A DNA stretch of 40,550 nucleotides. It comes from a virus. A model generated the notes under the pieces. It made no database searches, was not told the DNA's origin, and saw only the letters and a program-made list of their open reading frames with translations. Shown here piece after piece: positions 1 through 36,537 of this stretch; positions within the stretch are counted from its first letter, which is position 1, and each line of letters opens with the position of its first letter. A program made the position numbers and the translations under genes. Location: the IMG/VR virus record IMGVR_UViG_3300037174_000181, positions 1 to 40,550 of that record. One strand, given 5' to 3'.

Positions 1-55
1 CCCGGCCTACCCCCCGGCCTACCCCCCGGCCTACCCCCCGGCCTACCCCCCGGCC
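1..55. repeat. 12-bp C-rich tandem repeat, left end of the circular array
   Basis: Four full copies of GGCCTACCCCCC (4-51) followed by GGCC. The same unit fills the other end of the window (40449-40532), so the array is continuous in a circular molecule. The complementary strand carries runs of six G separated by six bases. Confidence 0.95.
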
Positions 56-66
56 AGTAATTTTAC

Positions 67-162
67 GGTACTCTGGTACCACACTCATTTTGTCGTGAGG
101 TATTCTGGTACCACACTCATTTTGTCGCGAGGTACTCTGGTACCACACTCATTTTGTCCCAC
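67..162. repeat. Three tandem 32-bp iteron-like repeats
   Basis: Three contiguous 32-bp units start at 67, 99 and 131. Each begins GGTAYTCTGGTACCACACTC and continues to TTTTGTC. The first two differ at two positions; the third differs only in its last bases. There are no spacers. The location beside an AT-rich stretch and between divergent promoters fits replication-initiator iterons or a repressor operator array. Which of these it is remains inference. Confidence 0.85.
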
Positions 163-244
163 AGTGTCGCGACAGATAGTATGATTTACTTTATGACTGA
201 TCCACTGTCTTTTTGCCTAGGACTTTCTTGCAGGGAGGGGGGGA

Positions 245-350
245 GATACGTCATATGTCATTCTAAAAGTCATTTTTTAACTTATTGATTTTATTATATT
301 ATTTTACTTAAATGACTTAAATGATATAAATGACTATATATAAATCACTA
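245..350. other. AT-rich stretch, candidate replication origin / unwinding element
   Basis: About 100 bases that are far richer in A and T than the rest of this GC-rich genome, lying between the 32-bp iterons and the perfect palindrome. It contains three TAAATGAY-type repeats in a row (about 309-334) and GTCAT motifs. Iterons plus an AT-rich element plus a palindrome is a common origin layout. No initiator protein or DnaA box was recognised, so this is an inference. Confidence 0.4.
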
Positions 351-509
351 TAGTGGAATATGAACAATGTACATGGTATACCATGTACATTGTTCATATT
401 CCATGGTAGCGATTTGAAATCCATGTGTCATCCGCCATTTGCGTCATTTCTCTGCAATATCAAAGGCTTACGCGATGGCAGGCCCGCGGCGAGTGTCATT
501 TTAAGTCAT
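250..509. promoter_or_regulatory. Cluster of GTCAT / ATGAC motifs upstream of the early promoter
   Basis: GTCAT occurs at 250, 257, 269, 427, 443, 495 and 505. Its complement ATGAC occurs at 312 and 330. Several are paired at short spacing, for example GTCATTTTAAGTCATTT at 495-511. The cluster ends about 65 bases before the -35 box at 576. It may be a multi-site operator or initiator-binding region; no cognate protein is known. Confidence 0.4.
354..403. repeat. Perfect 50-bp palindrome without spacer
   Basis: Every base from 354 to 378 pairs with 403 down to 379: 25-bp arms, no loop and no mismatch. Base 353 (G) and 404 (T) break the symmetry. The core is GGTATACC (375-382). It can form a cruciform or long RNA hairpin. 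Possible roles are a dimeric regulator or replication site, or a resolution site. It lies about 170 bases upstream of the early promoter. Confidence 0.95.
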
Positions 510-575
510 TTCAGGGGTTTTTGGCCAGTTTTATAACTTATTGTCGCGGCAATCTGGCGCACCCGGCATCCCCGC

Positions 576-604
576 TTGACATTTTATTAGGCCGTCTCTA
601 TTAT
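576..604 (+). promoter_or_regulatory. Sigma70-type promoter driving the cassette array and right arm
   Basis: TTGACA (576-581), 17-base spacer, TATTAT (599-604): a full consensus -35, a near-consensus -10 and ideal spacing. Transcription should start near 611, which gives a short leader to the first start codon at 636. It is the strongest promoter match I see on this strand and probably makes the early transcript. Confidence 0.8.
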
Positions 605-635
605 AGTGATCATGCCGCGTGCATAGGAGCTGGAC

Positions 636-737
636 ATGACCCGGAGCAAACTTTACGGCGCGGTCAAACTCGGGCGCACCGCCATAGGCGTACAAGCGCG
701 AGCATGGGCTACGCTATACATAAAGGAGGGGGTATAA
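636..737 (+). CDS. Leader mini-ORF carrying only the cassette-end module (33 aa)
   Basis: ATG at 636 lies behind AGGAGCTGGAC. It encodes 33 residues beginning MTRSKLYGAVKLGRTAIG and ending ARAWATLYIKEGV. The last 13 residues are the same ending found on the array members, and the stop TAA overlaps the ATG of unit 1 (TAATG). It lacks the conserved N-terminal domain and the repeat tail. The simplest reading is a translated leader that brings ribosomes to the first cassette and supplies its ribosome binding site, since the KEG codons are the Shine-Dalgarno. It could also be the relic of a collapsed cassette. No other function is visible. Confidence 0.7.
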   Translation: MTRSKLYGAVKLGRTAIGVQARAWATLYIKEGV

Positions 738-1171
738 TGTGCAAAATTATCACGCTGGCGCAGCTAAAAGCCGCAGGCGCGTGCGCCGATGCGCTGCAGT
801 GCTTCGCCGCCGCGTTCGGGGAGAGCACACCGGTGACGCCGTCCCTCGCCGGTAAATACGCGACTCAGTTTAGTTGGGACTGGGCCGCGGGTAATCTTCT
901 CTCAAGGCCCGCACGGGCCGAGTACTATAGGGCCTGCGCGCGCGCACGGGCCGAGTATGATCGAGACCACGAGTACGCCCGGGTCGAGTACGCCCGGGCC
1001 GAGTATGATCGGGCCGTCGCCCCCGCCCCCGCGCAAACCAAGCGCAATAAAGTCATCGCGCGAGCATGGGCTACGTACACTGAGGCCGCCGTGCGCGCGC
1101 AGACCGAGTACGCTAGGGCCTGCGCGCGAGCATGGGCTACACTATACACAAGGGGGGGATATAATGCGTAA
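737..1171 (+). CDS. Array unit 1: N-terminal domain plus EY-repeat tail protein (144 aa)
   Basis: The start is the ATG of the TAATG overlap, with AAAGGAGGGGGTATA before it. Residues 1-60 are the family domain (MCKIITLAQLKAAGACADAL, GESTPVTPSL, GKYATQF, SWDWAA). The tail is rich in RAEY/RVEY and carries a QTKRNK block and two ARAWAT segments. It has the STPVT plus GKYA haplotype. The protein runs past the usual stop into the next gene, ending YTRGGYNA, because the ending module is one base short. The fold is probably all helical. I recall phage and prophage proteins with a similar domain followed by AWAEY-type repeats, but know no function for them. Confidence 0.8.
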   Translation: MCKIITLAQLKAAGACADALQCFAAAFGESTPVTPSLAGKYATQFSWDWAAGNLLSRPARAEYYRACARARAEYDRDHEYARVEYARAEYDRAVAPAPAQTKRNKVIARAWATYTEAAVRAQTEYARACARAWATLYTRGGYNA

Positions 1172-1565
1172 TATTATCACGCTGTCGCAGCTAAAAGTCG
1201 CAGGCGCGTGCGCCGATGCGCTGCGGCGCTTCGCCACCGCGTTCGGGGAGAGCACACCGGTGACCCTGGCTCTCGCCTGCAAGCACGCGGATCAGTTTGA
1301 TTGGGACTGGGCCGCGTTATATCTTCTCCCGGCGCCCGCCCGAGCCGAGTATGGTCAAGACCGCGAGCGCGCACAGGGCGAGTATGATCGAGACCACGAG
1401 TACGCCCGGGTCGAGTACGCCCGGGCCGAGTATGATCGGGCCGTCGCCCCCGCACTCTCCTTGGCTACGTACACTGAGGCCTGCGCGCGAGCGCAGACCG
1501 AGTACGCTAGGGCCTGCGCGCGAGCATGGGCTACGCTATACACAAGGGGGGGATATAATGTGTAA
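1164..1565 (+). CDS. Array unit 2 (133 aa)
   Basis: ATG at 1164 overlaps the end of unit 1 by eight bases, behind a run of seven G that serves as the Shine-Dalgarno. The N-terminal domain starts MRNIITLSQLKVAGACADAL and has the STPVT, LAL and CKHADQF variants. The tail shares its DRDHEYARVEYARAEYDRA stretch with unit 1, then a shortened VAPALSLATYTEACARAQ. Like unit 1 it misses the canonical stop and ends YTRGGYNV inside unit 3. Sharing both tail blocks and the poly-G ending with unit 1 suggests these two arose by a recent duplication. Confidence 0.8.
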   Translation: MRNIITLSQLKVAGACADALRRFATAFGESTPVTLALACKHADQFDWDWAALYLLPAPARAEYGQDRERAQGEYDRDHEYARVEYARAEYDRAVAPALSLATYTEACARAQTEYARACARAWATLYTRGGYNV

Positions 1566-1968
1566 TATTATCACGTTGGCGCAGCTAAAAGCCACGGCCA
1601 CGGGCGACGTGGATCAGTTTGATTGGGACTGGGCCGCGTCATATCTCCTCTCGGCGGCCGCGCGGGCCGAGGGCGATAGACTCCGGGCCGAGGGCGACAG
1701 GCTCATGGCCGATGGCAATAGACTATGGACCGAGGCCCTCAGGCTCATAGACGAGGGCGACAGGCTCGTGGCCGGTGGCAATAGGCTCCGGGCCGATGGC
1801 AATAGACTATGGACCGAGGCCCGCGCGGCCGCCGAGAGGAGATATGACGAGGGCGACAGGCTCGTGGCCGATGGCAATAGGCTCCGGGCCGATGGCAATA
1901 GGCTCCGGACCGAGGCCCTCAGGCTCATAGACGAGGGCGACAGGCTCATGGCCGGGAAGGAGGCTTAA
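1558..1968 (+). CDS. Array unit 3: truncated domain with a heptad-repeat tail (136 aa)
   Basis: ATG at 1558 overlaps unit 2. The domain begins MCNIITLAQLKA, then about 28 residues present in the other units are missing. It resumes at VDQFDWDWAASYLL. The tail differs from all the others: a strict seven-residue period of the type xAxGDRL / ADGNRL / TEALRL, with Leu every seventh position. That is a heptad coiled-coil pattern, whereas the other units are spaced mostly by 11. It contains an internal duplication of TEALRLIDEGDRL and ends MAGKEA without the cassette-end module. So one cassette has swapped in a foreign or diverged tail. Confidence 0.75.
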   Translation: MCNIITLAQLKATATGDVDQFDWDWAASYLLSAAARAEGDRLRAEGDRLMADGNRLWTEALRLIDEGDRLVAGGNRLRADGNRLWTEARAAAERRYDEGDRLVADGNRLRADGNRLRTEALRLIDEGDRLMAGKEA

Positions 1969-1972
1969 CCTG

Positions 1973-2344
1973 ATGACATACCGCGCAATTTACGACGACG
2001 CCACCACGCGCGCGCGGGCCGAGTGCGACCAGGCTGTCAAGCGCGCGCAGGTCGAGTTCGACCAGGCTGTCGAGCGCGCGCGGGCCGAGTATGTCATGGC
2101 CGCTACGCCCGCGTGGACCGCGTACGATCGGGCCGTTGCCCCCCCTAAGGCCACCACATTCGCGCGGGCGCGCGCCGAGTGTAGGGAGGCCACCGCACTC
2201 CCCTGGGCTACGTACACTGAGGCCGTCGCGCGCGCGCGGGCCGAGTATGCGACGGTCTTCCTGTTTGCGCGGGGCAAGCGTAGGAAGGCCATCACACTCG
2301 CGCGCTTGGCCTACGCCCGTGCGCGCGCAGACCGAGCGCGATAA
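1973..2344 (+). CDS. Array unit 4: tail-only member, frameshifted end (123 aa)
   Basis: ATG at 1973 follows AAGGAGG with a nine-base spacer, four bases after the unit 3 stop. It has no N-terminal domain and is repeat tail from the start (MTYRAIYDDATTRARAEC, then QAVKRAQVEFDQAVERARAEY). It stops at 2344, but another frame continues without interruption as AQTERDKTSARAWAHLYIKAGI and ends in the TAATG of unit 5. This indicates a frameshift near the 3' end that separates the gene from the normal ending. It is probably a decayed cassette, though it is still open and has a good ribosome binding site. Confidence 0.6.
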   Translation: MTYRAIYDDATTRARAECDQAVKRAQVEFDQAVERARAEYVMAATPAWTAYDRAVAPPKATTFARARAECREATALPWATYTEAVARARAEYATVFLFARGKRRKAITLARLAYARARADRAR

Positions 2345-2392
2345 AACCAGCGCGCGAGCGTGGGCTCATCTATACATAAAGGCGGGGATATA

Positions 2393-2809
2393 ATGTGCAA
2401 AATTATCACGCTGTCGCAGCTAAAAGCCGCAGGCGCGTGCGCCAATGCGCTGCAGCGCTTCGCCGCCGCGTTCGGGGAAAGCGTGCAAGTGACGCCGGCC
2501 CTCGCCGGTAAATACGCGGATCAGTTTGATTGGAAATGGGCCGCAGATAATCTTCTCTCAATACCCGCGTGGACCGAGTATGAGGCGGCCCGTGTGGCCG
2601 CTTGGGCCAAGTATGAGACGGCCCGTGTCAAGTATGAGACGGCCGTGCTAGTCGTATTAAATAGCCCCCCGAGTGCGCGGGACGGCGTCGTGCAATGCCC
2701 GCACGGGCCGTCTCATATGAGCCGACGCGCCATCAACGCTGCGCAAACCAAGCGCAATAAAGCCATCGCGCGGGCGTGGGCTACATTATACATAAAGGAG
2801 GGGATATAA
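2393..2809 (+). CDS. Array unit 5 (138 aa)
   Basis: The start at 2393 follows AAAGGCGGGGATATA, a one-base variant of the usual ribosome binding site. The domain carries VQVT plus GKYADQF and DWKWAADNLL. The tail begins PAWTEYEAARVAAWAKYE. It then has a diverged VLNSPPSARDGV block (LLNSPPSEQDGV in units 6 and 7) and QTKRNKAIARAWATLYIKEGI. It ends TAATG into unit 6. It is the first unit of the regular part of the array, where every boundary uses the same stop/start overlap. Confidence 0.8.
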   Translation: MCKIITLSQLKAAGACANALQRFAAAFGESVQVTPALAGKYADQFDWKWAADNLLSIPAWTEYEAARVAAWAKYETARVKYETAVLVVLNSPPSARDGVVQCPHGPSHMSRRAINAAQTKRNKAIARAWATLYIKEGI

Positions 2810-3273
2810 TGTGCAAAATTATCACGCTGGCGCAGCTAAAAGCCGCAGGCGCGTGCGCCGATGCGCTGCAGCGCTTCGCCGCCGCGTTCGGGGAGAGCAC
2901 ACCGGTGACGCCGTCCCTCGCCTGCAAGCACGCGGATCAGTTTGATTGGGACTGGGCCGCAGATAATCTTCTCTCGGCGGCCGCGCAGGTCGAGTATGAC
3001 CAGGCTGTCAAGCGCGCGCAGGTCGAGTATGAGACGGCCGCCGCGCCCGCGCGGGTCAAGTATGCCGCCGCCGCCGCGCCCGCGCTAGCCTTGTTAAATA
3101 GCCCCCCGAGTGAGCAGGACGGCGTCGCCCGCGCGCACTTATGGGCTAAATATGATCGGGACCGCGAGCGCGCGCAGGTCGAGTACGATCGGGCCGCCGC
3201 CGCCGCGCTAGCCGAGTACGATAGGACCTGCGCGCGGGCGTGGGCTCATCTATACATAAAGGAGGGGATATAA
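2809..3273 (+). CDS. Array unit 6 (154 aa)
   Basis: TAATG start with AAAGGAGGGGATATA. The domain has CADAL, STPVT, PSL and CKHADQF. The tail contains QVEYDQAVKRAQVEYE, also seen in unit 4, then AAAAAPALALLNSPPSEQDG and ARAHLWAKYDRDRERA, shared with units 7 and 9. It ends CARAWAHLYIKEGI. The WAHLY variant rather than WATLY recurs in unit 13 and in the lost frame of unit 4, which again suggests shuffling of end modules among units. Confidence 0.8.
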   Translation: MCKIITLAQLKAAGACADALQRFAAAFGESTPVTPSLACKHADQFDWDWAADNLLSAAAQVEYDQAVKRAQVEYETAAAPARVKYAAAAAPALALLNSPPSEQDGVARAHLWAKYDRDRERAQVEYDRAAAAALAEYDRTCARAWAHLYIKEGI

Positions 3274-3275
3274 TG
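3258..3275 (+). promoter_or_regulatory. Representative cassette junction: ribosome binding site inside the upstream C-terminus, TAATG
   Basis: AAAGGAGGGG (3258-3267), ATA, then TAATG (3271-3275). In the upstream frame this reads K-E-G-I-stop; in the downstream frame the ATG starts the next unit. The same junction, with ATA or GTA, is found at 735-739, 2807-2811, 3801-3805, 4361-4365, 4891-4895, 5511-5515, 6047-6051 and 6475-6479. The Shine-Dalgarno is near ideal, so each stop should be followed by efficient re-initiation. Confidence 0.9.
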
Positions 3276-3803
3276 TGCAAAATTATCACGCTGGCGCAGC
3301 TAAAAGCCGCAGGCGCGTGCGCCAATGCGCTGCAGCGCTTCGCCGCAGCGTTCGGGGAAAGCGTGCAAGTGACGCCGTCCCTCGCCGGTAAATACGCGGA
3401 TCAGTTTAGCTGGGACTGGGCCGCAGATAATCTTCTCCCGGCGCCCGCGCGGACCGAGTATAAAATAGTCGAAGCGCGCACTTGGGCCGAGTATGAGATA
3501 GTCGTCGCGCGCGCTTGGGCCGAGTGCGCTCAGGCCGTCGCCCCCGCACAGGCCAAGTACGCCGCCGCCGCCGCGCCCGCGCTAGCCTTGTTAAATAGCC
3601 CCCCGAGTGAGCAGGACGGCGTCGCCCGCGCGCACTTATGGGCTAAATATGATCGGGACCGTGAGCGCGCGCTAGCCGAGTATGATCGGGCCGTCGCCCC
3701 CGCGCGAACCAAGCGCAATAAAGCCGTCGCCCCCGCGCGAACCAAGCGCAATAAAGCCGTCGCGCGAGCGTGGGCTACGCTATACACAAAGGAGGGGGTA
3801 TAA
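3273..3803 (+). CDS. Array unit 7 (176 aa)
   Basis: TAATG start. The domain has CANAL, VQVT, PSL, GKYADQF and SWDWAADNLLPAPA. The tail starts TEYKIVEARTWAEYEIVVAR, a block reused in units 11, 12 and 13. It continues with AAAAAPALALLNSPPSEQDG and a back-to-back duplication of VAPARTKRNKA (33 bp each, about 3688-3755). It ends ARAWATLYTKEGV. The fresh 33-bp duplication shows that tails change length in frame by tandem duplication. Confidence 0.8.
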   Translation: MCKIITLAQLKAAGACANALQRFAAAFGESVQVTPSLAGKYADQFSWDWAADNLLPAPARTEYKIVEARTWAEYEIVVARAWAECAQAVAPAQAKYAAAAAPALALLNSPPSEQDGVARAHLWAKYDRDRERALAEYDRAVAPARTKRNKAVAPARTKRNKAVARAWATLYTKEGV

Positions 3804-4363
3804 TGACCAAAATTCTCACGCTGTCGCAGCTGAAAGCCGCAGGCGCGTGCGCCGGTGCGCTGCGGCGCTTCACCGCCGCGTTCGGGGAGAGCACACCGGT
3901 GACACCGGCCCTCGCCTGCAAGCACGCGGATCAATTTAGCTGGAACTGGGCCGCGGATAATCTTCTCTCGGCGCCCGCTCAGGCCGCGTACGATCGAGCT
4001 ACCGAGCGCGCTTGGGCCGCGTACGATCGGGCCGCCGCGCCCGCCCGGGCCAAGTACGCTGTCGCCGCCGCGCGCGCTTGGGCCGCGTACGATCGGGCCG
4101 CCGCGCCCGCGCGGGTCAAGTACGCCGCCGCCGCGCCCGCGCTAGCCTTATTAAATAGCCCCCCGAGTGAGCGGGACGGCGTCGCCCGCGCGCGCCTATG
4201 GGCCAAGTATGATCAAGACCGCGAGCGCGCGCAGGTCGAGTATGATCGAGACCGCGAGTACGCCCGGGCCGAGTATGATCGGGCCGTCGCCCCCGCGCGA
4301 ACCAAGCGCAATAAAGCCGTCGCGCGAGCGTGGGCTACGCTATACACAAAGGAGGGGGTATAA
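3803..4363 (+). CDS. Array unit 8 (186 aa)
   Basis: TAATG start. Units 8-10 form a subgroup with MTKIL instead of MCKII and with CAGALRRFTAAFG. This unit has STPVT, PAL and CKHADQF. The tail is the clearest 11-residue repeat of the array: successive AYDRAAAPARA / KYAVAAARAWA / AYDRAAAPARV blocks put Tyr exactly every 11 residues. LLNSPPSERDGV, YDRDREYARAEYDRA and ARTKRNKAVARAWATLYTKEGV follow. Hendecad spacing predicts a long continuous helix or a coiled coil with little supercoiling. Confidence 0.8.
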   Translation: MTKILTLSQLKAAGACAGALRRFTAAFGESTPVTPALACKHADQFSWNWAADNLLSAPAQAAYDRATERAWAAYDRAAAPARAKYAVAAARAWAAYDRAAAPARVKYAAAAPALALLNSPPSERDGVARARLWAKYDQDRERAQVEYDRDREYARAEYDRAVAPARTKRNKAVARAWATLYTKEGV

Positions 4364-4893
4364 TGACCAAAATTCTCGCGTTGTCGCAGCTAAAAGCCGC
4401 GGGTGCGTGCGCCGGTGCGTTGCGGCGCTTCACCGCCGCGTTTGGAAAGAGCGTGCAAGTGACGCCGTCCCTCGCCGGTAAATACGCGGATCAGTTTAGC
4501 TGGGACTGGGCCGCAGATAATCTTCTCCCGGCGCCCGCCCGGGCCGCGTACGATCGAGCTACCGAGCGCGCTTGGGCCGAGTATGAGACGGCTGCCGCGC
4601 CCGCGCGGGTCAAGTACGCCGCCGCCACCGCCGCCGCGCGGGTCAAGTATGCCGCCGCCGCCGCGCCCGCGCTAGCCTTGTTAAATAGCCCCCCGGGTGA
4701 GCGGGACGGCGTCGCCCGCGCGCACTTATGGGCTAAATATGATCGGGACCGTGAGCGCGCGCTAGCCGAGTATGATCGAGACCGCGAGTACGCCCGGGCC
4801 GAGTATGATCGGGCCGTCGCCCCCGCGCGAACCAAGCGCAATAAAGCCGTCGCGCGAGCGTGGGCTACGCTATACACAAAGGAGGGGGTATAA
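4363..4893 (+). CDS. Array unit 9 (176 aa)
   Basis: TAATG start. The domain begins MTKILALSQLK, has GKSVQVTPSL (Lys where the others have Glu) and GKYADQF. The tail starts like unit 8 (AAYDRATERAWA), then has VKYAAATAAARVKYAAAAAP, apparently a local duplication of ARVKYAAA. It continues with LLNSPPGERDGV and the same EYDRDREYARAEYDRA and TKRNK ending as unit 8. So it combines the 8/10-type start, the 5/7-type haplotype pair and an 8-type tail. Confidence 0.8.
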   Translation: MTKILALSQLKAAGACAGALRRFTAAFGKSVQVTPSLAGKYADQFSWDWAADNLLPAPARAAYDRATERAWAEYETAAAPARVKYAAATAAARVKYAAAAAPALALLNSPPGERDGVARAHLWAKYDRDRERALAEYDRDREYARAEYDRAVAPARTKRNKAVARAWATLYTKEGV

Positions 4894-5513
4894 TGACCAA
4901 AATTCTCGCGTTGTCGCAGCTGAAAGCCGCGGGCGCGTGCGCCGGTGCGTTGCGGCGCTTCACCGCCGCGTTCGGGGAGAGCACACCGGTGACCCTGGCC
5001 CTCGCCTGCAAGCACGCGGCCCGGTTTAGCTGGGACTGGGCCGCAGATAATCTTCTCCCGGCGCCCGCCCGAGCCGAGTATGATCAAGACCGCGAGCGCG
5101 CACAGGGCGAGTACAAGACGGCCATCGCGCCCGCCCGGGCCTATTACGCCACAGTCGTCAAGCTTGCGGAGGCCGAGTACGAAAAGGCCCATGCTCGCGA
5201 GCGGGCCGAGTACGATAAGATCACCGCACAAGCGTGGGTCGAGTATAAGAGGGCCGTCGCCCCCGCCCGGGTCGAGTATGACCAGGCCGTTACACAGGCG
5301 CTAGTTGAGCACAGGAGGCCTAAATATGAGCATGCCTCCGCGCCTGTATGGGTCGAGCGCAGGAAGGCCCGCGTGGGGGCGTGGGTCGAGTACGATCGGG
5401 CCGTCGCCCCCGCGCGAGCCGAGTACGCCCGGGCCGTTACACAAGCGCTAGTTGAGTACAGGCAGGCCTGCGCGCGAGCATGGGCTACACTATACACAAA
5501 GGAGGGGATATAA
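4893..5513 (+). CDS. Array unit 10, the longest member (206 aa)
   Basis: TAATG start. The domain starts MTKILALSQLK with STPVT, LAL and CKHAARF (the usual ADQF is replaced). The tail is long: RAEYDQDRERAQGEYKTA, a unique YYATVVKLAEAEYEKAHA stretch, then RAVAPARVEYDQAVTQALVE and a diverged HRRPKYEHASAPVWVERR copy. It ends AVTQALVEYRQACARAWATL and YTKEGI. The VTQALVEY end module is shared with units 11 and 12 and absent from units 1-9, a directional spread along the array. Confidence 0.8.
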   Translation: MTKILALSQLKAAGACAGALRRFTAAFGESTPVTLALACKHAARFSWDWAADNLLPAPARAEYDQDRERAQGEYKTAIAPARAYYATVVKLAEAEYEKAHARERAEYDKITAQAWVEYKRAVAPARVEYDQAVTQALVEHRRPKYEHASAPVWVERRKARVGAWVEYDRAVAPARAEYARAVTQALVEYRQACARAWATLYTKEGI

Positions 5514-6049
5514 TGTGCAAAATTATCACGCTGGCGCAGCTGAAAGCCGCAGGCGCGTGCGCCGATGCGCTGCAGCGCTTCGCCGCAGCGTTCGGGGAAA
5601 GCGTGCAAGTGACACCGGCCCTCGCCTGCAAGCACGCGGATCAGTTTAATTGGGACTGGGCCGCAGATAATCTTCTCCCGGCGCCCGCCCGAGCCGAGTA
5701 TGAGATAGTCGTCGTGCGCGCGGCCGCCGAGTATGAGACGGCCGCCGCGCCCGCGCGGGTCAAGTACGCCGCCGCCGCCGCACAGGCCAAGTACGCCCGG
5801 GCCGAGTACGCTCAGGCCGTCGCGCGCGCCCGGGCCAAGTGCAATCGTACCAGCGCATCGGCGCAAGCCAAGTACGATAGAGCCTGCGCCAATGCGCTGC
5901 AGCGCTTCGCCTCCGCGTCCGGGGAGTATGATCGGGACCGTGAGCGCGCGCGAGCCGAGTACGCCCGGGCCGTTACACAAGCGCTAGTTGAGTACAGGCA
6001 GGCCTGCGCGCGAGCGTGGGCTACATTATACATAAAGGAGGGGATATAA
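5513..6049 (+). CDS. Array unit 11, tail contains a copied domain fragment (178 aa)
   Basis: TAATG start. The domain has CADAL, VQVT, PAL and CKHADQF, a combination seen only here and in unit 12. In the tail, after SASAQAKYDRA, comes CANALQRFASASGE. This is nearly the same as the CANALQRFAAAFGE of the N-terminal domain in other units, at DNA level as well (about 5885-5926). A piece of domain has therefore been inserted into the helical tail. It ends VTQALVEYRQACARAWATLY and IKEGI. Confidence 0.8.
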   Translation: MCKIITLAQLKAAGACADALQRFAAAFGESVQVTPALACKHADQFNWDWAADNLLPAPARAEYEIVVVRAAAEYETAAAPARVKYAAAAAQAKYARAEYAQAVARARAKCNRTSASAQAKYDRACANALQRFASASGEYDRDRERARAEYARAVTQALVEYRQACARAWATLYIKEGI

Positions 6050-6477
6050 TGTGCAAAATTATCACGCTGTCGCAGCTGAAAGCCGCGGGCGCGTGCGCCA
6101 ATGCGCTGCAGTGCTTCGCCGCCGCGTTCGGGGAAAGCGTGCAAGTGACGCCGTCCCTCGCCTGCAAGCACGCGGATCAGTTTAGCTGGGGCTGGGCCGC
6201 GTCATATCTTCTTTCAAGGCCCGCGCGGGCCGAGTATAAAATAGTCGAAGCGCGCGCCCGGGCCAAGTGCAATCGTACCAGCGTATCGGCGCAAGCCAAG
6301 TACGATAGAGCCTGCGCCAATGCGCGGCAGCGCTTCGCCTCCGCGTCCGGGGAGTATGATCGGGCCGTCGCCCCCGCGCGAGCCGAGTACGCCCGGGCCG
6401 TTACACAAGCGCTAGTTGAGTACAAGCAGGCCATCGCGCGAGCATGGGCTACGCTATACATAAAGGAGGGGGTATAA
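6049..6477 (+). CDS. Array unit 12 (142 aa)
   Basis: TAATG start. The domain has CANALQCF, VQVT, PSL, CKHADQF and SWGWAASYLLSRPARAEY. CF and SRPARAEY are shared only with unit 1, at the far end of the array. The tail has EYKIVEARARAKCNRTSVSA, then the same inserted domain fragment as unit 11 (here CANARQRFASASGE), YDRAVAPARAEYARAVTQAL and the IARAWATLYIKEGV ending. The mixture of unit 1-like and unit 11-like segments is a clear sign of exchange between distant units. Confidence 0.8.
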   Translation: MCKIITLSQLKAAGACANALQCFAAAFGESVQVTPSLACKHADQFSWGWAASYLLSRPARAEYKIVEARARAKCNRTSVSAQAKYDRACANARQRFASASGEYDRAVAPARAEYARAVTQALVEYKQAIARAWATLYIKEGV

Positions 6478-6875
6478 TGTGCAAAATTATCACGCTGTCG
6501 CAGCTAAAAGCCGCGGGCGCGTGCGCCAATGCGCTGCAGCGCTTCGCCGCCGCGTTCGGGGAGAGCACACCGGTGACCCTGGCCCTCGCCGGTAAATATG
6601 CGGATAAGTTTGATTGGGAATGGGCCGCGTCATATCTTCTCCCAATGCCCACGCGGACCGAGTATGAGATAGTCGTCGCGCAGGCACGGGGTGGGTATAG
6701 TAGGGCTATTGAGGAAGCGTGGGCCGATTACGAGGAGGCCATCGACCCCGCACAGGCCGAGTATGATCGCGCCGAGTACGCCCGGGTCAAGTGCAATCGT
6801 ACCATCGCCTCTGCGCAAGCTAAGTACGATAGGGCCTGCGCGCGAGCGTGGGCTCATCTATACATACAGGTATGA
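6477..6875 (+). CDS. Array unit 13, last member (132 aa)
   Basis: TAATG start. The domain has CANAL, STPVT, LAL, GKYADKF and DWEWAASYLLPMPT. The tail carries more acidic residues than the others (GGYSRAIEEAWADYEEAIDP), then KCNRTIASAQAKYDRACARA and WAHLYIQV. The cassette-end module is degenerate here: the Shine-Dalgarno codons are lost and the stop TGA overlaps the next ATG as ATGA. This marks the right boundary of the array. Confidence 0.8.
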   Translation: MCKIITLSQLKAAGACANALQRFAAAFGESTPVTLALAGKYADKFDWEWAASYLLPMPTRTEYEIVVAQARGGYSRAIEEAWADYEEAIDPAQAEYDRAEYARVKCNRTIASAQAKYDRACARAWAHLYIQV

Positions 6876-7270
6876 TCATGCCCGACCCCTTTGATATTTT
6901 CGACCGGCTCGCCGGTGACGCGCCACGGGAGCGCACCGGCGAGCCGGCGCCGGTCATCGGCGAAGAATTATCCGTGCGTTTACAACATAACCTGTCCTTG
7001 GCGGTCCACCGCCAAGGTGAGCTTTTGAGTCGTCCGGTGTACGCCGAGGATGATATTAAAGAGCGGCGTTTGGTTGCTGAGGTAGCCAATAATGTAGCGA
7101 GGCTCGCGGCAAGTGTGAATGCAACCGCCTTGCAAGCGCGTAAGGACAATTTCCTCGCGCGCGTGCTTATAGTGTTGGCACAAGAAAAACAAAAATTGGG
7201 CTATGAGCTGGGCGAAGAGGAACTGAAACGGCTGGGAGAAGCCCATGACAGGCACATTGAGAGATCCTGA
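6872..7270 (+). CDS. Hypothetical protein between array and replication module (132 aa)
   Basis: It begins MIMPDPFDIFDRLAGDAPRE with the ATG inside the ATGA overlap with array unit 13; a second ATG lies six bases downstream. The N-terminal third is Pro/acidic. The rest is helical, with an Ala/Val/Leu segment (EVANNVARLAASVNATALQA) and a charged C-terminus. It is not related to the cassettes. The size and helical character would suit a small terminase or a DNA-binding accessory protein, but I recognise no motif. The next gene starts inside its last codons, so the two are translationally coupled. Confidence 0.7.
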   Translation: MIMPDPFDIFDRLAGDAPRERTGEPAPVIGEELSVRLQHNLSLAVHRQGELLSRPVYAEDDIKERRLVAEVANNVARLAASVNATALQARKDNFLARVLIVLAQEKQKLGYELGEEELKRLGEAHDRHIERS

Positions 7271-9692
7271 CAGTATTATGCTCCCGTTCTTCGCCGCCGT
7301 ATTGCCGGCGACAGGCATCTATTGTGCGTCGTTCAAGTCCGGGCGGGGCCGGTTTCGCAGCTCGTTTCATACGACCCGAGCTGCGCTTGCCCGCGCAATC
7401 CAAGAGGCCGATCGTGACGGCCTGGAGACCTACTACGCCGTCGCCTCCTACAAACAAGGCACGTCCCGCGAAGCTGCCAACGTCGCCTCCTTGCAGGCTT
7501 TATGGCTCGACATAGACTACGGGGACGGGCACGCGCCCGAGGTTGCCGGCTACGCGACCCGAGACGAGGCTATCGCCGCCGTGCGTGAGTTCTGCGGCAC
7601 TGCGAACCTGCCACCGCCGATGCTGGTCTTTTCGGGCGGGGGCCTGCATGTTTATTGGCCGTTGGCAGAGCCGCTCGCCGTGCAAAATTGGCTGCCCTAC
7701 GCGCTTGGCCTTAAAGCCCTCAGCGTGACCCATGAGCTACGTGCGGATCATAGGGTAACTGCCGACGCGGCGCGTATCCTGCGGCCACCGTGCACTACAA
7801 ACCGTAAAAGGCGAGGCGACCCGCGCCCTGTTGAGTTCGATCCGCGGTGGCTTCAACTCAAGCCCTATGTGCTCGCCGGCACGGCATTTGGCGCCGCGCT
7901 TCTTTCAGCCTCCCCCGATGGACATATACGACAATCTGTCGCGCCACTTGGTGTGCTCGGTTGCAAACCGGCTTATCTCAACGGCCCGCTGGCCCCGACA
8001 CTCGCCGCGAAACTCACCATGCCGGTGGACTTGGCAGATGCCGGCGCGGTCGCGGACCAATGCCGGCAACTAGGTCATATGCGCGCAACGCGCGGGCTTA
8101 TGGTCGAGCCTGCTTGGCGGGGCGCTATTGGCCTACTGGCGTTCTGCGATGACGGCCGGGCGTTGGCGCACGCCTGGAGTCAAGGCGACACACGATACTC
8201 ACGAGCTGAAACAGACGCGAAGTGGGACGGGGTCAGAAAGCAGACCGGTCCGACCACATGCGCCTATTTTCAGGGCCTCGACGATGTAACGCGCGGGCGC
8301 TGCGCAGCCTGTAGGCACAGGGGGTTGATCACAACCCCCTTGCAGGCGCCGGAGCGGGCCGGTGCACCCCTGGCACCCGGGGCAGAGGTTCCGGCTACCG
8401 GGCAAGAGCTGGACATAGCCGAGCTGAATTCGCGGCACTTTTTAATCAAAATTGGCTTTAGCGTGGTAGTTGGCGAGCTGCAACGCGACCCTCTCGGGCG
8501 CGAAGGCGCGTTTTCGTATGTCACCAAGGCGGGGTTTGAGCTGCTGTACGCACCCCGCACGACAGTCCCGGCCGGCACTTACAAGCGCGTGCCGTTAGGT
8601 CCCTATTGGCTCAGCCACCCGGAGCGGCGCCAGTACGTCGGCCTCGACATAGTGCCGGGAGGCCCGAGAGACCTCGCCGACCGACGGCTGAACCTCTGGT
8701 CAGGCTGGGGCGTCGAGCCGGCTCCCGGGAACTGGAGCCGCATGAAGAAGCATATTTCATCGATCTTGGCGAACGGCGACCCGCACGCGGCGGAGTACAT
8801 AGTCCGTTGGACCGCTTGGGTATTGCAGCATCCGGCGGAGCAGCCGGGCGTAGCTCTGACTATTCGGGGGGGCAAAGGCTCGGGTAAAGGTTTGTATTTT
8901 GATACGCTACAAAGAATGTTCGGCCGACACTCCCTCGCTGTCGCAAGCCAAGAGCATCTACTTGGCCGGTTCAACCGGCACTTGCTGGACAGTCTGTTCG
9001 TCTTTATTGACGAGGGATTCTGGGCGGGGGATAAAAAATCGGAGGGGGTGCTCAAACGGCTAATAACGGATCGGACGATGATAGTTGAAATTAAAGGTGT
9101 CGACGCGGTCGAAGCCCGGAATCGCATTGCTTTTGCAATCGCCACCAACGCCGAGTGGGTTGTTCCCGCGGGGGCCGGCGAGCGGCGCTATGCCGTGTTC
9201 GAGACCAACGATAAATATGTAAAAGGTCATAACCCGCAAGCGACGATTGATGCCTATTTTGAACCGCTCTATGCCGAGCTGGAGGGCGGTGGACGGGCGG
9301 CGATGCTGTATGATTTACTGGCGCTGCCGCTCGGCACGTGGCACCCGCGACAGGTTTACGAGACAGCGGCCTTGGCTGAACAGAAAGAGCTGTCGCTCAA
9401 CCAATTTGATGCGTGGTGGCTCGAGTGCCTCGAGGATGGTCGCCTGCCCGGTATCCACCCGGCGGGTCAGCCGTTCCGGGTGTTGCCGGTGAGTTGCGCC
9501 GAGGCTATCGGGGGCAATCGGTTCTCGGCGCGCGGCGTCACTATGCACTTGCAAAAATTGGGGTTTTGCCTCGCCCGCACCGCCGAAGCGCGCTACTGGT
9601 CCGCGCCCCCGCTTGAGCAGGCGCGCGCCGCGTGGGAGCAGAAATTTGGCGCGCGGACGTGGAGGCTGGACAATTTGGATGGATGGAGCTAA
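7245..9692 (+). CDS. Primase-helicase: AEP-type primase plus SF3-like (DUF5906 / NrS-1-like) helicase (815 aa)
   Basis: Residues about 20-230 look like an archaeo-eukaryotic primase (prim-pol) domain: LDIDYG near residue 87 gives the acidic pair, and SGGGLHVYW near 130 gives the catalytic Ser/His motif. The C-terminal half matches phage replicative helicases of the NrS-1/DUF5906 type. It has a Walker A GGKGSGKG near 541, Walker B LFVFIDEG near 584 and the conserved KGVDAVEARNRIAFAIATNA block after it. It probably lays primers and unwinds at the fork for the family A polymerase encoded downstream. The chosen ATG follows GGGAGAAGCCC; a later ATG at 7278 has a weaker site. Part of the helicase domain is duplicated just downstream. 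Confidence 0.9.
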   Translation: MTGTLRDPDSIMLPFFAAVLPATGIYCASFKSGRGRFRSSFHTTRAALARAIQEADRDGLETYYAVASYKQGTSREAANVASLQALWLDIDYGDGHAPEVAGYATRDEAIAAVREFCGTANLPPPMLVFSGGGLHVYWPLAEPLAVQNWLPYALGLKALSVTHELRADHRVTADAARILRPPCTTNRKRRGDPRPVEFDPRWLQLKPYVLAGTAFGAALLSASPDGHIRQSVAPLGVLGCKPAYLNGPLAPTLAAKLTMPVDLADAGAVADQCRQLGHMRATRGLMVEPAWRGAIGLLAFCDDGRALAHAWSQGDTRYSRAETDAKWDGVRKQTGPTTCAYFQGLDDVTRGRCAACRHRGLITTPLQAPERAGAPLAPGAEVPATGQELDIAELNSRHFLIKIGFSVVVGELQRDPLGREGAFSYVTKAGFELLYAPRTTVPAGTYKRVPLGPYWLSHPERRQYVGLDIVPGGPRDLADRRLNLWSGWGVEPAPGNWSRMKKHISSILANGDPHAAEYIVRWTAWVLQHPAEQPGVALTIRGGKGSGKGLYFDTLQRMFGRHSLAVASQEHLLGRFNRHLLDSLFVFIDEGFWAGDKKSEGVLKRLITDRTMIVEIKGVDAVEARNRIAFAIATNAEWVVPAGAGERRYAVFETNDKYVKGHNPQATIDAYFEPLYAELEGGGRAAMLYDLLALPLGTWHPRQVYETAALAEQKELSLNQFDAWWLECLEDGRLPGIHPAGQPFRVLPVSCAEAIGGNRFSARGVTMHLQKLGFCLARTAEARYWSAPPLEQARAAWEQKFGARTWRLDNLDGWS
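8623..9382 (+). repeat. Helicase-domain segment, copy A of a direct repeat
   Basis: 8623-9350 matches 9795-10522 collinearly without gaps (offset 1172). Then 9351-9362 is missing from copy B, and 9363-9382 matches 10523-10542. The copies have scattered base differences that change ten amino acids, so this is a real duplication and not an assembly echo. Confidence 0.95.
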
Positions 9693-9751
9693 AGATGGTT
9701 GACAATTTGGGGGAACGGGGCTAAAGATAATTGACAAAAAGGAAGAGAAAC
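9693..9751 (+). promoter_or_regulatory. Short intergenic spacer with two GCTAAAGATRRTTGACAA repeats
   Basis: Two imperfect copies of GCTAAAGAT-(GG/AA)-TTGACAA flank a G-rich stretch, and AAAAAGGAAGAG just before 9752 serves as ribosome binding site. Two TTGACA words are present, but I find no well-spaced -10 for either. A promoter here is only a weak possibility. Confidence 0.3.
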
Positions 9752-10570
9752 ATGGCTGATAGCTATCAACAGCGCGGTAATCCGCGATACCCCAAGCGGC
9801 GCCAGTACGTCGGCCTCGACATAATGCCGGGAGGCCCGAGAGAACTCGCCGACGGACGGCTGAACCTCTGGTCAGGCTGGGGCGTCGAGCCGGCTCCCGG
9901 GAACTGGAGCCGCATGAAGAAGCATATTTCATCGATCTTGGCGAACGGCGACCCGCACGCGGCGGAGTACATAACCCGTTGGACCGCCTGGGTTTTGCAG
10001 CATCCGGCGGAGCAGCCGGGCGTGGCTCTGACTATTCAGGGGAGCAAAGGCTCGGGTAAAGGTTTGTATTTTGATACACTGCAAAGGATGTTTGGCCGAC
10101 ACTCCCTCGCTGTCGCAAGCCGAGAGCATCTACTTGGCCGGTTCAACCGGCACTTGCTGGACAGTCTGTTCGTCTTTATTGACGAGGGATTCTGGGCGGA
10201 GGATAAAAAATCGGAGGGGGTGCTCGAACGGCTAATAACGGATCGAACGATGATAGTTGAAATTAAAGGTGTCGACGCGGTCGAAGCCCGGAATCGCATT
10301 GCTTTTGCGATCGCCACCAACGCCGAGTGGGTTGTTCCCGCGGGGGCCGGCGAGCGGCGCTATGCCGTGTTCGAGACCAACGATAAATATGTAAAAGGTC
10401 ATAACCCGCAAGCGACGATCGATGCCTATTTCGAACCGCTCTATGCCGAGCTGGAGGGCGGCGGGCGGGCGGCGATGCTGTATGATTTACTGGCGTTGCC
10501 GCTCGACACGTGGCACCCGCGAACAGCGGCCTTGGCTGAACAATTTGGATGGATAGAGAAACATGGCTGA
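9752..10570 (+). CDS. Duplicated stand-alone helicase domain, chimeric gene (272 aa)
   Basis: The first 15 residues (MADSYQQRGNPRYPK) are the start of the next gene. Then follow about 240 residues of the upstream helicase domain, then a short new end (FGWIEKHG). Walker A is GSKGSGKG and Walker B FIDEG; both are intact, as is the arginine-rich GERRYAVFE region. Ten substitutions and a four-codon deletion separate it from copy A. It has no primase domain. It could be a functional paralog that assembles with the full-length protein, or a neutral duplicate. The ATG at 9752 has a good Shine-Dalgarno; a TTG seven codons upstream is in frame but less likely. Confidence 0.8.
   Translation: MADSYQQRGNPRYPKRRQYVGLDIMPGGPRELADGRLNLWSGWGVEPAPGNWSRMKKHISSILANGDPHAAEYITRWTAWVLQHPAEQPGVALTIQGSKGSGKGLYFDTLQRMFGRHSLAVASREHLLGRFNRHLLDSLFVFIDEGFWAEDKKSEGVLERLITDRTMIVEIKGVDAVEARNRIAFAIATNAEWVVPAGAGERRYAVFETNDKYVKGHNPQATIDAYFEPLYAELEGGGRAAMLYDLLALPLDTWHPRTAALAEQFGWIEKHG
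9795..10542 (+). repeat. Helicase-domain segment, copy B of a direct repeat
   Basis: Counterpart of 8623-9382. The left junction lies inside the reading frame of the MADSYQQ gene (after CCCCAAG). The right junction rejoins at AATTTGGATGGAT, which also occurs at the end of the primase-helicase gene (about 9675-9687). That short homology probably served the recombination. Confidence 0.9.
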
Positions 10571-10865
10571 TAGCTATCAACAGCGCGGTAATCCGCGATA
10601 CCCCAAGCTGCGCGCATCAGAGCGTTGGAAACTAGGGCGCGAGTTGACACCCGATGAGAAGTACCGGCACGGTGAGGAAGTGCTCGCTGAGATTGGCCGG
10701 CTCAATCAGGCGGAAAGTAACCGCCGAGCTGGAGTCAACGTGGGCCATCGCGCCTGCCCTTGTGCCAGCGGAACATGGTTGTCGGGCGGCGAAGCGATCC
10801 TTAAGGCTGTCGGGCGGCAGAACCTTGCGGCGCTGCATAATTGGAAACCCGTAGGTTGGAGTTGA
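10563..10865 (+). CDS. Hypothetical small protein, original owner of the MADSYQQ start (100 aa)
   Basis: It overlaps the duplicated helicase gene by eight bases. It begins MADSYQQRGNPRYPKLRASE and is mostly charged and helical (GRELTPDEKYRHGEEVLAEI). The C-terminal part has a Cys-x-Cys (CPCASG). The duplicate of its first 47 bases at 9752 shows that the helicase fragment was inserted by splitting a copy of this gene. No family recognised. It is probably a replication-module accessory, judged only by position. Confidence 0.65.
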   Translation: MADSYQQRGNPRYPKLRASERWKLGRELTPDEKYRHGEEVLAEIGRLNQAESNRRAGVNVGHRACPCASGTWLSGGEAILKAVGRQNLAALHNWKPVGWS

Positions 10866-10868
10866 AAC

Positions 10869-11066
10869 GTGGACGAAAATGAAGCCTGGACCAGCTACCA
10901 CCTGCGTGTTTGGCGCGCGTGTGAGCAATTGACGCAGGCGCAAGCGGCGAAAGTGCTTGGCGTCAGTCGGCAAACGGTCATCGCGTGGGAAGCCGGTAAG
11001 TACCCTGAGGATTTACGCTCGCGGATGCAGGCGGCGTCCGATGTTCTGAAGGATACTCGAAGTTGA
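10869..11066 (+). CDS. Small helix-turn-helix (XRE/Cro-like) DNA-binding protein (65 aa)
   Basis: GTG start behind GGAG. Residues about 19-45 (LTQAQAAKVLGVSRQTVIAW) are a standard HTH_3 pattern: Gln-Ala-Ala in helix 2, the Gly turn, and Ser-Arg-Gln-Thr-Val at the start of the recognition helix. It is tiny, with no dimerisation or ligand domain. It probably represses or activates phage transcription, perhaps at the palindrome or iterons of the control region (inference). Its stop overlaps the TTG of the polymerase gene. Confidence 0.85.
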   Translation: MDENEAWTSYHLRVWRACEQLTQAQAAKVLGVSRQTVIAWEAGKYPEDLRSRMQAASDVLKDTRS

Positions 11067-12955
11067 AGCCGCCTGCTATCGGGGTACACCGGAAGGCTAT
11101 GGAGGCGGCGGTCGTGCGAGCGCTGCCAGGTTTCAAATACCAAGAGGCCGGGAATGCGATGCAACTAATCTGTCTAGATTTCGAGACATACTTCGCCGAC
11201 GACTACACGTTGCAGACGATGACTGCGGAGGCGTACATACGTGACCCGAGGTTCGAGGCTCTAGGCTGTGGCATCAAGGCCGCCGGTGGCACGCCGGGGT
11301 GGGTGCCGCAGGAATCGCTCAAACGGTGCTTCGCGTCTATCGATTGGGCGGATACTGCGGTCATCGCGCACCACGCACAGTTTGACGGGTTGGTCTTGTC
11401 ACACCACTATGGCGTCAAGCCGGCTTTTTGGTTTGATACCCTTTCTATGGCTCGGCTCATACATGGCAACAATATATCTGTCAGCTTGGCGGCTCTTGCC
11501 AAGCACTATGGCTTACCTACAAAAACTGTTCCCTACGATTTGTTCCGAGGGAAGCGGTGGCAAGATTGTAATTCTGACACGCGTGAGCAACTTGCGCGTG
11601 GTTGTGAGCACGACGTTGATCTCACATGGGAGATTTTTGGAAAACTGGTCTCTGTATTCCCCCCCGGCGAATTCCCCATAGTTGATATGACTGTGCGGAT
11701 GTTTACTGAGCCGGTGCTGGTCGGCGACGCCACGCTGTTTGCCAAGTGCCGCGACGACGCATCCCGGGCGAAGCAGGAGCAGCTCTACTCACTCGGCGTG
11801 TCGACGAAGGACTTGGGGTCCGACGCGAAGTTCACAGCGCTGCTCGAGGCTGAGGGCGTTGAGGTCGAGACGAAAGTAACGCCGAAAGGCAATGAGAAGC
11901 CCGCGATTGCCAAAACCGATCGCTTTATGTTGGAACTACTGGAGAATGATAATGAACGTGTCGCGGCCCTTGCTCAGGCTCGTCTCGACGTGCGATCAAC
12001 CATCGCCGAAACACGGGCTGGCCGACTTTATGAAATGTGCGGGCGTGGCCCCTTATGCGTTTACTTATCGTATGCTGGAGCCCACACAACCCGATGGGCC
12101 GGTGGAGATAAAGTTAACTTTCAGAACCTCCCCAGAAGCGGCGACATTCGCCGAGGGGTTGTTGCGCCTGCGGGATATTTATTTGGGCGCGTTGACCAAT
12201 CGCAAGGAGAGTGCAGACTCGTGAACTGGCTCGCTGGCCAGGATGATGTGGTCGCTCGGTTCCGGCAAGGACACGACCCCTACCTGCCGATGGCGTCGGC
12301 ATTCTACGGGCGAGAGATAACCAAGAATGACAAAGCGGAGCGCGACCTCGGCAAGGTGTTGGAATTGCAATGCGGGTTCGGCTCCGGCGCGGATAAGATA
12401 AAAAGTAGTTGTCGCGTTAGAGGCATCATTTTGACTGACGCCGAGGCCTTGCATGGGCGCAACACGTACCGGGTGACACACTCTCAGGTAACAAATTGCT
12501 GGAAGGTGGGCGATGCGATGCTTGCGCGGCTCTCCCGCAAGGAGTCTATACCGTGCGCCTGGGGGCCGTGCACGGTGCAAGACGGCAAAATCTTTCTCCC
12601 CAATGACACATGGCTTGATTTCGCTTCTTTACATTGGCACCGCGATGAAGCGACCGGCGATAATTACTGGCGCCTCGAAACTCGGCACGGCTTTGTGAAA
12701 TACTACGGCGCGAAGCTGGTCGAAAACGTAGTGCAGGCGCTCTCTCGCGTGGTTACATCTGACGCTATGTTGCGCGCGCAGGCGGCCGGTTATCGGATCG
12801 TCGGGATGACGCACGATGATATTTGGGTTCTGATACCCGAAACTACGGTAGGTGAGTGTTCACGAGCGCTTGTGGAGTGCATGACCACGCCGCCGGCCTG
12901 GGGGCCGGATCTACCGCTCGCGGCCGATTGCACGGTAGGTAAGACCTATGGCTGA
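11063..12955 (+). CDS. Family A DNA polymerase with 3'-5' exonuclease domain (630 aa)
   Basis: Exonuclease motifs: DFETYF near residue 38, AHHAQFD near 95 and CEHDVDLT. The polymerase palm has motif A as DQSQGECR near 376 (the usual form is D-x-S-x-x-E-x-R). Motif B is KVLELQCGFG near 430. Motif C is THDDIW near 583, with HDD where most family A enzymes have HDE. It is compact and complete, and would replicate the phage genome with the primase-helicase. The TTG at 11063 sits in a TTGA overlap with AAGGA nine bases before it. ATG codons at 11099 and 11159 are alternatives; the last would start directly at the exonuclease domain. Confidence 0.92.
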   Translation: MKPPAIGVHRKAMEAAVVRALPGFKYQEAGNAMQLICLDFETYFADDYTLQTMTAEAYIRDPRFEALGCGIKAAGGTPGWVPQESLKRCFASIDWADTAVIAHHAQFDGLVLSHHYGVKPAFWFDTLSMARLIHGNNISVSLAALAKHYGLPTKTVPYDLFRGKRWQDCNSDTREQLARGCEHDVDLTWEIFGKLVSVFPPGEFPIVDMTVRMFTEPVLVGDATLFAKCRDDASRAKQEQLYSLGVSTKDLGSDAKFTALLEAEGVEVETKVTPKGNEKPAIAKTDRFMLELLENDNERVAALAQARLDVRSTIAETRAGRLYEMCGRGPLCVYLSYAGAHTTRWAGGDKVNFQNLPRSGDIRRGVVAPAGYLFGRVDQSQGECRLVNWLAGQDDVVARFRQGHDPYLPMASAFYGREITKNDKAERDLGKVLELQCGFGSGADKIKSSCRVRGIILTDAEALHGRNTYRVTHSQVTNCWKVGDAMLARLSRKESIPCAWGPCTVQDGKIFLPNDTWLDFASLHWHRDEATGDNYWRLETRHGFVKYYGAKLVENVVQALSRVVTSDAMLRAQAAGYRIVGMTHDDIWVLIPETTVGECSRALVECMTTPPAWGPDLPLAADCTVGKTYG

Positions 12956-13199
12956 CGAGACCTTGTTCACCGCCGCGCGCCGCGTAGTGCGAGAGTTTAA
13001 CGTCATGATGAACCACGATGGGGGGCTCGTCAGCCGGTCCATCGAGATGGCGATCAACACGCTCGACCTGGAAACGGAGAAGGAACGTGCCAAGCAAAAA
13101 CGTAATGAAGAAGTTCAAGAAAGGAATCTTGCGCAGCGGCAGCAAACGTGGCCCCGAGGTCAAAAACCGCAAGCAGGCGATCGCGATCAAAATGTCTGA
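12948..13199 (+). CDS. Hypothetical protein, overlapped by the next gene in another frame (83 aa)
   Basis: It overlaps the polymerase end. The N-terminal half (LFTAARRVVREFNVMMNHDG, GLVSRSIEMAINTLDLE) looks like a small helical phage protein. The C-terminal half is very hydrophilic, with low complexity (KQKRNEEVQERNLAQRQQTW). From 13087 on, the same DNA encodes a recognisable protein in the +1 frame, so the second half may simply be tolerated read-through. Function unknown. Confidence 0.6.
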   Translation: MADETLFTAARRVVREFNVMMNHDGGLVSRSIEMAINTLDLETEKERAKQKRNEEVQERNLAQRQQTWPRGQKPQAGDRDQNV

Positions 13200-13233
13200 A
13201 GAACGGAAAGAGCAAAGGGGGGAGAAGCCTTGA
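13087..13233 (+). CDS. DUF6496-like small basic protein (48 aa)
   Basis: GTG start with GGAG seven bases upstream. The sequence contains KNVMKKFKKGILRSGS and then KNRKQAIAIKMSEERK. This is the pattern of the small DUF6496 family (KVMxEFKxGxLxSGS...KQAIAIALSEA), widespread in phages and bacteria with unknown function. It overlaps the preceding gene by 113 bases in a different frame, and its stop TGA overlaps the TTG of the nuclease gene. The family match is from memory of the motif, not a search. Confidence 0.75.
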   Translation: MPSKNVMKKFKKGILRSGSKRGPEVKNRKQAIAIKMSEERKEQRGEKP

Positions 13234-13874: not shown

Positions 13875-14095
13875 TCGTGCGGGTCACTGTAACCAACGGG
13901 GCGTTTTTTGACTTGGAGACGCCCGACGACTTCGATTTTGACGAGCTCGTCATGCAAGTCCGCACCGAAGGGTGGTGGAGGCTAGCCGGGCGCATCTGTG
14001 TTCCCTACGCCCACATTCAAAGCATGCTGGTCATATCCGCTGAGGTCGCGGCGAAAACCAACCCCCAACGTATGCAACATGCGGTGCTGAATTGA
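13871..14095 (+). CDS. Hypothetical protein (74 aa)
   Basis: ATG start in an ATGA overlap with the nuclease gene, preceded by GGAGCGAAAA. It begins MIVRVTVTNGAFFDLETPDD, then has an acidic FDFDELV stretch and a strand-rich middle (GWWRLAGRICVPYAHIQSML). A small alpha/beta protein is plausible. It lies between two nuclease genes and is coupled to both by overlaps. No family recognised. Confidence 0.65.
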   Translation: MIVRVTVTNGAFFDLETPDDFDFDELVMQVRTEGWWRLAGRICVPYAHIQSMLVISAEVAAKTNPQRMQHAVLN

Positions 14096-36482: not shown

Positions 36483-36537
36483 TTCTTGCCAGATCCAACA
36501 GGCGCTTTTGCCGCATCGAGATCTTTCATCAGCTTTT

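Follow-up and report, generated by a model that had tools for sequence, protein, structure and literature searches.

A possible bicistronic leader: the short open reading frame that opens a phage paralog array

Why is a tandem array of paralogous phage genes headed by an open reading frame (ORF) of only 33 codons, whose stop codon overlaps the start codon of the first gene? The locus lies in a stretch of 40,550 nucleotides, positions 1 to 40,550 of the IMG/VR virus record IMGVR_UViG_3300037174_000181 (the window), which represents a phage genome with 69 nt in common between its two ends; another assembly (IMGVR_UViG_3300037238_000146, the second assembly below) continues across the join of these ends and is identical to the window where compared (1-4363, 4795-19543 and 35290-40550). 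All features of the locus described below lie on the + strand. On balance, if only just, we consider it probable that this short ORF is translated and serves mainly to deliver ribosomes to the first unit, and its best reading, by analogy, is that of a natural bicistronic leader like ORF27 of iraD or the synthetic BCD.

The leader ORF (636-737; 33 codons from an ATG start, MTRSKLYGAVKLGRTAIGVQARAWATLYIKEGV) would encode a basic peptide of 33 residues and carries a Shine-Dalgarno (SD) motif, AGGAG (625-629), 6 nt before its ATG, with an anti-SD pairing energy of -6.5 kcal/mol where the 10% point of 409 background AUGs lies at -6.4 kcal/mol. The 33-codon ORF with its own SD, as put forward in the sequence-only reading, is in this respect borne out. 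It is directly preceded by a promoter match, the best one in the first 8 kb: a sigma-70-type TTGACA-17-TATTAT (576-604) that agrees with the consensus in 11 of 12 letters and is the only one on the + strand among six in 1-8000, where shuffles give 2.6; judged by this consensus match, transcription would start at about 609-612. A four-codon frame, ATG CCG CGT GCA TAG (612-626), is found at the expected transcription start, and its stop overlaps the leader SD.

The same reading had described the leader as consisting only of the module that ends the array's cassettes, which holds for its last 13 codons but not for the first 20 (636-695), which are unrelated to the array. This unique part shows no detectable derivation from it, neither as protein, where the best shuffle fraction against the 13 units is 0.012 and not significant for 13 tests, nor as DNA, where the fraction against the array is 0.42. 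A truncated unit was accordingly ruled out as the source of the leader, its first 60 nt being unrelated to the units or to the C-termini of the Planktothrix phage paralogs discussed below, and a candidate helix-turn-helix fragment in the unique part was dropped for want of a Pfam match at E<=1. For the leader peptide as a whole, neither PHROGs nor Pfam gave a family match at E<=1.

Whether the ORF is more than a chance frame was assessed with dinucleotide shuffles of 605-695, scored for SD strength and open frame and with SD-ATG spacing unscored, in which an open in-frame ATG with an SD at -6.5 kcal/mol or better arose in 97 of 3000 cases, rising to 171 of 3000 with GTG and TTG starts allowed. 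This is moderate support for the leader ORF being more than chance. The G+C content by codon position in the unique part (0.6, 0.5 and 0.7) is coding-like, over 20 codons only. The ORF is probably, though not certainly, real.

Behind the leader follow 13 paralogous units that extend up to position 6875, most of which have in common an N-terminal domain (ITLxQLKAAGAC...FxWDWAAxxLL) and 11-residue repeats. Unit 1 (737-1171, 144 aa) overlaps unit 2 (1164-1565, 133 aa) by 8 nt, and unit 2 overlaps unit 3 (1558-1968) to the same extent; units 5-12 (2393-6477; starts at 2393, 2809, 3273, 3803, 4363, 4893, 5513 and 6049) are each joined to the next unit by TAATG; and unit 13 (6477-6875), which ends in ARAWAHLYIQV, shares a 4-nt overlap (ATGA) with the ORF that forms the exit of the chain (6872-7270, MIMPDPFDIF...), for which a convincing family match is absent. 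Units 3 and 4 (1558-2393) look decayed or divergent, as unit 3 has a shortened N-terminal domain, divergent repeats and no end module, and unit 4 (1973-2344) is without the N-terminal domain and runs out of frame ahead of the block described below. The repeats of unit 3 are of the EGDRL type. Across the array the units are mosaics, in which STPVT/SVQVT and CKHAD/GKYAD blocks occur in many combinations (3803-4893 and neighbours), and over 155 nt there is no difference between the junctions at 4363 and 4893; both features read as signs of recombination between units. The second assembly breaks inside the array, with window positions 4364-4794 missing, which suggests that the array's repeats hinder assembly. 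An AlphaFold2 model of unit 6 (mean pLDDT 88.5) predicts a small N-terminal domain and two long helices, the last of which ends with the module; Foldseek matched the model to nothing in PDB or BFVD at E<=0.001, and the fold carries no information on the leader.

What ties the leader to the array is a 44-nt cassette-end or ribosome-landing block (696-739) that stands before unit 1 and recurs, with variants, before 11 later starts. It holds the SD of unit 1, AAAGGAGG (722-729, within the leader's last codons), and the TAATG overlap (735-739), in which the leader's TAA (735-737) and the ATG of unit 1 (737-739) stand at a distance of -1, inside the range of -8 to +6 considered for a coupled short upstream ORF. 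The leader has the further marks of such an ORF, namely a start and an SD of its own, weaker than that of unit 1, and the downstream SD inside its 3' end. The overlap is not independent evidence, because TATAATG belongs to the fixed block and the overlap therefore follows from the entry frame; the end peptide of the leader likewise follows from the block once the frame enters in the right phase.

The sequence-only reading had the leader sharing its end and its TAATG overlap with real cassettes, and the first full cassette depending on a preceding ORF like the rest; these parallels were worded too broadly. The block itself is shared, but exactly ARAWATLYIKEGV ends only one of the 13 units (unit 12); ARAWA[T/H]LY stands near the end of 11 of the 13 and is followed by variants, and the two exceptions are unit 3, which has a different end, and unit 4, which is out of frame with the block. 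Counting all 14 junctions from the leader through the ORF after the array, nine are TAATG (-1), two are -8, and -4, +4 and +48 occur once each; 12 of the 14 fall into the -1, -4 and -8 classes and are by position of the coupling type. Both -8 junctions go back to an SD run shorter by 1 nt (ACAAGGGGGGG versus ACAAAGGAGGGG), a loss that shifts the stop into the next gene and, at the ends of units 1 and 2, slightly weakens the SD; the shifted ends and their 8-nt overlaps are seen at 1151-1171 and 1545-1565 (ATGCGTAA and ATGTGTAA). Eight of the 12 block-preceded starts (737, 1558, 2393, 2809, 3273, 5513, 6049 and 6477) read AUGUG, and a GUG frame of 38 or 44 aa follows several of them; this motif is reported to permit starts in two frames (PMC9841429).

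How far does unit 1 need the leader? The earlier claim that the leader makes unit 1 dependent on it was right about the layout, an SD-bearing short ORF with a second SD inside and a 1-nt overlap being that of translational coupling, but dependence as such is unsupported. Anti-SD pairing amounts to -12.5 kcal/mol at unit 1, among the strongest of the array, versus -6.5 kcal/mol at the leader, and opening the initiation region (-18 to +15) is predicted to cost 7.4 kcal/mol at unit 1 and 10.9 kcal/mol at the leader; among 400 background AUGs the median cost is 14.9 and the 5% point 7.66 kcal/mol, below which unit 1 falls. Summed, the two energies put unit 1 ahead by about 9 kcal/mol, spacing and start-codon terms not entering the sum, and because its start beats that of the leader in both, coupling may be unnecessary. 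Over 50 fold windows, most of the unit 1 SD (725-731) is unpaired with a mean of 0.69 and the unit 1 AUG with a mean of only 0.21. Permuting the leader codons 200 times gives a mean unit 1 cost of 6.4 kcal/mol (sd 1.7), with 19% of permutations at or above the real 7.4, and because these costs are similar there is no sign that the leader sequence has been shaped to lock unit 1. On three of these measures, the unpaired share of the SD stretch, the opening cost and the codon permutation, the sequestered SD that characterizes iraD-type coupling by RNA unfolding was not found at unit 1.

When the leader stretch is held unpaired, as it would be by a translating ribosome, the opening cost of unit 1 drops from 7.4 to 3.1 kcal/mol; this kind of drop is not special to unit 1, since all 14 starts tested show it, by 0.3 to 8.3 kcal/mol. 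Pairing between the leader start and the unit 1 start depends on the window folded (the expected number of pairs is 10 if the transcript ends at 760 and 0.2 if it ends at 790) and is not stable evidence. According to these models unit 1 should start well alone, and coupling would add to that; strict dependence of unit 1 on the leader is unlikely, and enhancement by termination-reinitiation at the leader is plausible.

In the mechanism that we favour, a ribosome would bind close behind the promoter, at the SD that belongs to the leader, and translate the 33 codons; on termination at TAATG, the start codon of unit 1 would lie under the ribosome with the strong SD just behind, and unit 1 could be started by the same ribosome or by a second one landing on the freshly unfolded stretch. 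Unit 1 would in this way gain the start context of units 6-13, namely translated upstream RNA, a strong SD and a 1-nt overlap. Translation of the leader would raise, by whatever amount, and even out that of unit 1, and ribosomes would cover the first part of the transcript. As unit 1 probably also starts by itself, the leader would act as an enhancer or adaptor and not as an on/off switch. This reading is supported because ORF, SD and overlap are all present and an open ATG with an equal SD is rare in the shuffles. If the leader is translated and helpful to unit 1, it would be a natural counterpart of the bicistronic leaders of biotechnology, heading an array of 13 paralogs, and the array would serve as a test of whether ribosomes are passed on evenly by reinitiation along many successive cistrons, and of how expression of the first gene is maintained in an array that recombines.

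The kind of arrangement is known, and its place is unusual. The original BCD is said to go back to Mutalik et al. 2013. In synthetic BCDs, a short first cistron with one SD (SD1) carries a second (SD2) in its 3' end and meets the next gene with a 1-bp stop/start frame shift, like the leader, and serves the reliable translation of the second gene (PMC5995908, PMC7576135); unlike the leader, which is natural and partly made of the array's own junction block, these are designed, and in the Leuconostoc paper their first cistron has fewer than 20 residues. The same layout as here is described for ORF27 in the leader mRNA of Escherichia coli iraD, a 27-aa ORF with its own SD and a stop that overlaps the next start, where coupling was demonstrated by a start-to-stop mutation and loss of ORF27 translation lowers iraD (PMC5574718); there, however, a strong structure hides the downstream SD and the ORF is under CsrA control, whereas the unit 1 SD is predicted to be mostly unpaired. 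Reinitiation-promoting leader genes are short ORFs near a structural gene whose translation they are proposed to raise, but they were required to be non-overlapping and peak at a distance of 10-11 bp, as compared with -1 here (PMC4833913).

More general accounts place -1 overlaps among the common classes and find -4, -1 and -8 enriched in unidirectional neighbouring gene pairs (PMC10666635, PMC12548453), report two E. coli gene pairs in which the last 15 nt of the upstream gene are enough for coupling (PMC10666635, section 7) and allow that an upstream ORF may serve solely for ribosome delivery (review PMC12548453, section 11). Word searches of the open-access literature returned nothing matching a tandem phage array with a coupled leader, which is not proof of absence.

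Among the other explanations, the one that survives best takes the leader for a by-product: a 44-nt ribosome-binding block, which includes the final codons of the gene before it, was kept with the units and joined at the head to unrelated DNA behind the promoter, from which an open ATG frame chances to run into the block, and unit 1 is started directly from its own strong SD. We regard this as a serious but clearly less probable account. It agrees with the strength and comparative openness of the unit 1 SD, with a stop overlap that the block makes automatic in this frame, with the number of shuffles that yield a suitable open ATG and SD, and with a unique part that has no detectable kinship to the units. 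The head copy of the block is also closest to the unit 12/unit 13 junction, with which it is identical over 62 nt (41 nt before the ATG and 21 nt from it), as expected from block exchange or recent duplication. Against it stand the chance of an open ATG with SD, which those shuffles place at only about 3 to 6%, and the coding-like codon-position G+C of the unique part, short as that is.

A further proposal, which builds on the coupled leader and which we hold to be rather unlikely, concerns the origin of the whole chain. The 10-nt sequence TGATCATGCC stands just behind the promoter (607-616) and again where the ORF that follows the array begins (6873-6882), its only other occurrence in the window, as a direct repeat that flanks leader and array; a 10-mer shared between these two stretches arose in 23 of 5000 shuffles, in a test made after the fact on a repeat already noticed. 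A real repeat would mean that the promoter was once next to the ORF now behind the array, and that the chain of leader and array came in between. Leader and array could then be one inserted chain, composed of the leader with its common block as head adaptor, units as interchangeable links (joined mostly by TAATG) and an exit adaptor in unit 13 (ATGA), which went in at the next ORF's start codon and left TGATCATGCC at both ends; the head adaptor would keep any first unit in the same translated context, as a natural, recombination-proof bicistronic adaptor, and would be useful because block recombination can change the first unit or the number of units.

A precedent for part of this is given by the mycobacterial interspersed repetitive units (MIRUs), which, according to a review, seem to be mobile repeats, inserting at start codons and forming a small repeat-made ORF with -4 coupling to the gene behind (PMC12548453, section 11). 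The last ORF of the present chain shows this -4 spacing to the gene behind it (unit 13/next ORF, ATGA), whereas insertion of the array is merely hinted at by the flanking repeat. No empty insertion site was found, the next ORF having been matched only in the identical relative.

A regulatory role for the leader, as a peptide or attenuator that senses something and switches the array, is highly improbable: it sits between promoter and first gene, and its start can pair with that of unit 1 in some of the folds (between 0.2 and 10 pairs expected, according to the fragment end), but this pairing shifts with the window used, the leader has no single-amino-acid run of the kind expected of regulatory codons, positions 605-740 contain no terminator-like hairpin on the + strand, and 1-7300 holds no Rfam family, on which last two counts an attenuator or riboswitch was set aside. 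Slightly less probable still is a micro-protein with a function of its own and incidental coupling, for which the leader's SD, its start and its basic character over 33 residues would speak, but which lacks the PHROGs and Pfam matches sought above and would have 13 of its 33 residues dictated by a block common to other junctions.

Returning to the leader as a coupled ORF, its relatives say little about it. Scans of IMG/VR with unit 6, an alignment of the N-terminal domain, the downstream ORF, the primase and a 28-mer of the block led to one close relative, the second assembly, and because this sole relative is identical where compared, it is uninformative about selection on the leader. For the units, PHROGs, Pfam and NCBIfam gave no noteworthy match. 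Unit relatives in the three other records, two IMG/VR contigs and one gammaproteobacterial MAG, are all single-copy, and among 369 genomes of the class of G001 the family occurs in one, G001 itself. With tblastn, whole units or relatives gave no match against phages and none against plasmids, the N-terminal domain of unit 6 matched three Planktothrix/Synechococcus phages at E 1e-3, and that of L019 gave six matches at chance level.

Planktothrix phage Pag-Yong1 (OL906435.1) carries three tandem paralogs of the same family, with 2 nt between genes, whose homology to the units extends over the N-terminal domain (hhalign probability 96.7%, E 3.3e-10). Their C-terminal ends, ALYVHTREG and ATLYAHHGAP, are similar to those of the array, and an SD-like GGGAGGG lies inside the end of the first tandem gene; the 11-residue repeats are absent, and no leader ORF is seen in the 40 nt that lie between the trio and the gene before it. 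Tandem growth of the family thus needs no leader, which counts against the favoured reading. A scan of IMG/VR with this trio found no relative, one of PHROGs with the trio, L011 and L019 found nothing convincing for the family, and a word search of the open-access literature found no paper naming both 'planktothrix phage' and 'pag-yong1', which again does not prove absence. The trio (OL906435.1, 2639-3665) is annotated as hypothetical proteins and lies near an annotated AcrVA2 gene and a VWA-like protein.

Elsewhere in the window, part of a primase/helicase gene is duplicated (8617-9353 and 9789-10526, 96% identity). Three 32-nt direct repeats with GGTACC cores (67-158) stand beside 12-nt CGGCCTACCCCC repeats found at both record ends and are iteron-like. 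About 170 nt before the array promoter lies a perfect 50-nt palindrome (354-403, TGGAATATGAACAATGTACATGG...), with 25-nt arms and no spacer, which could be an operator, an origin or an end-processing site.
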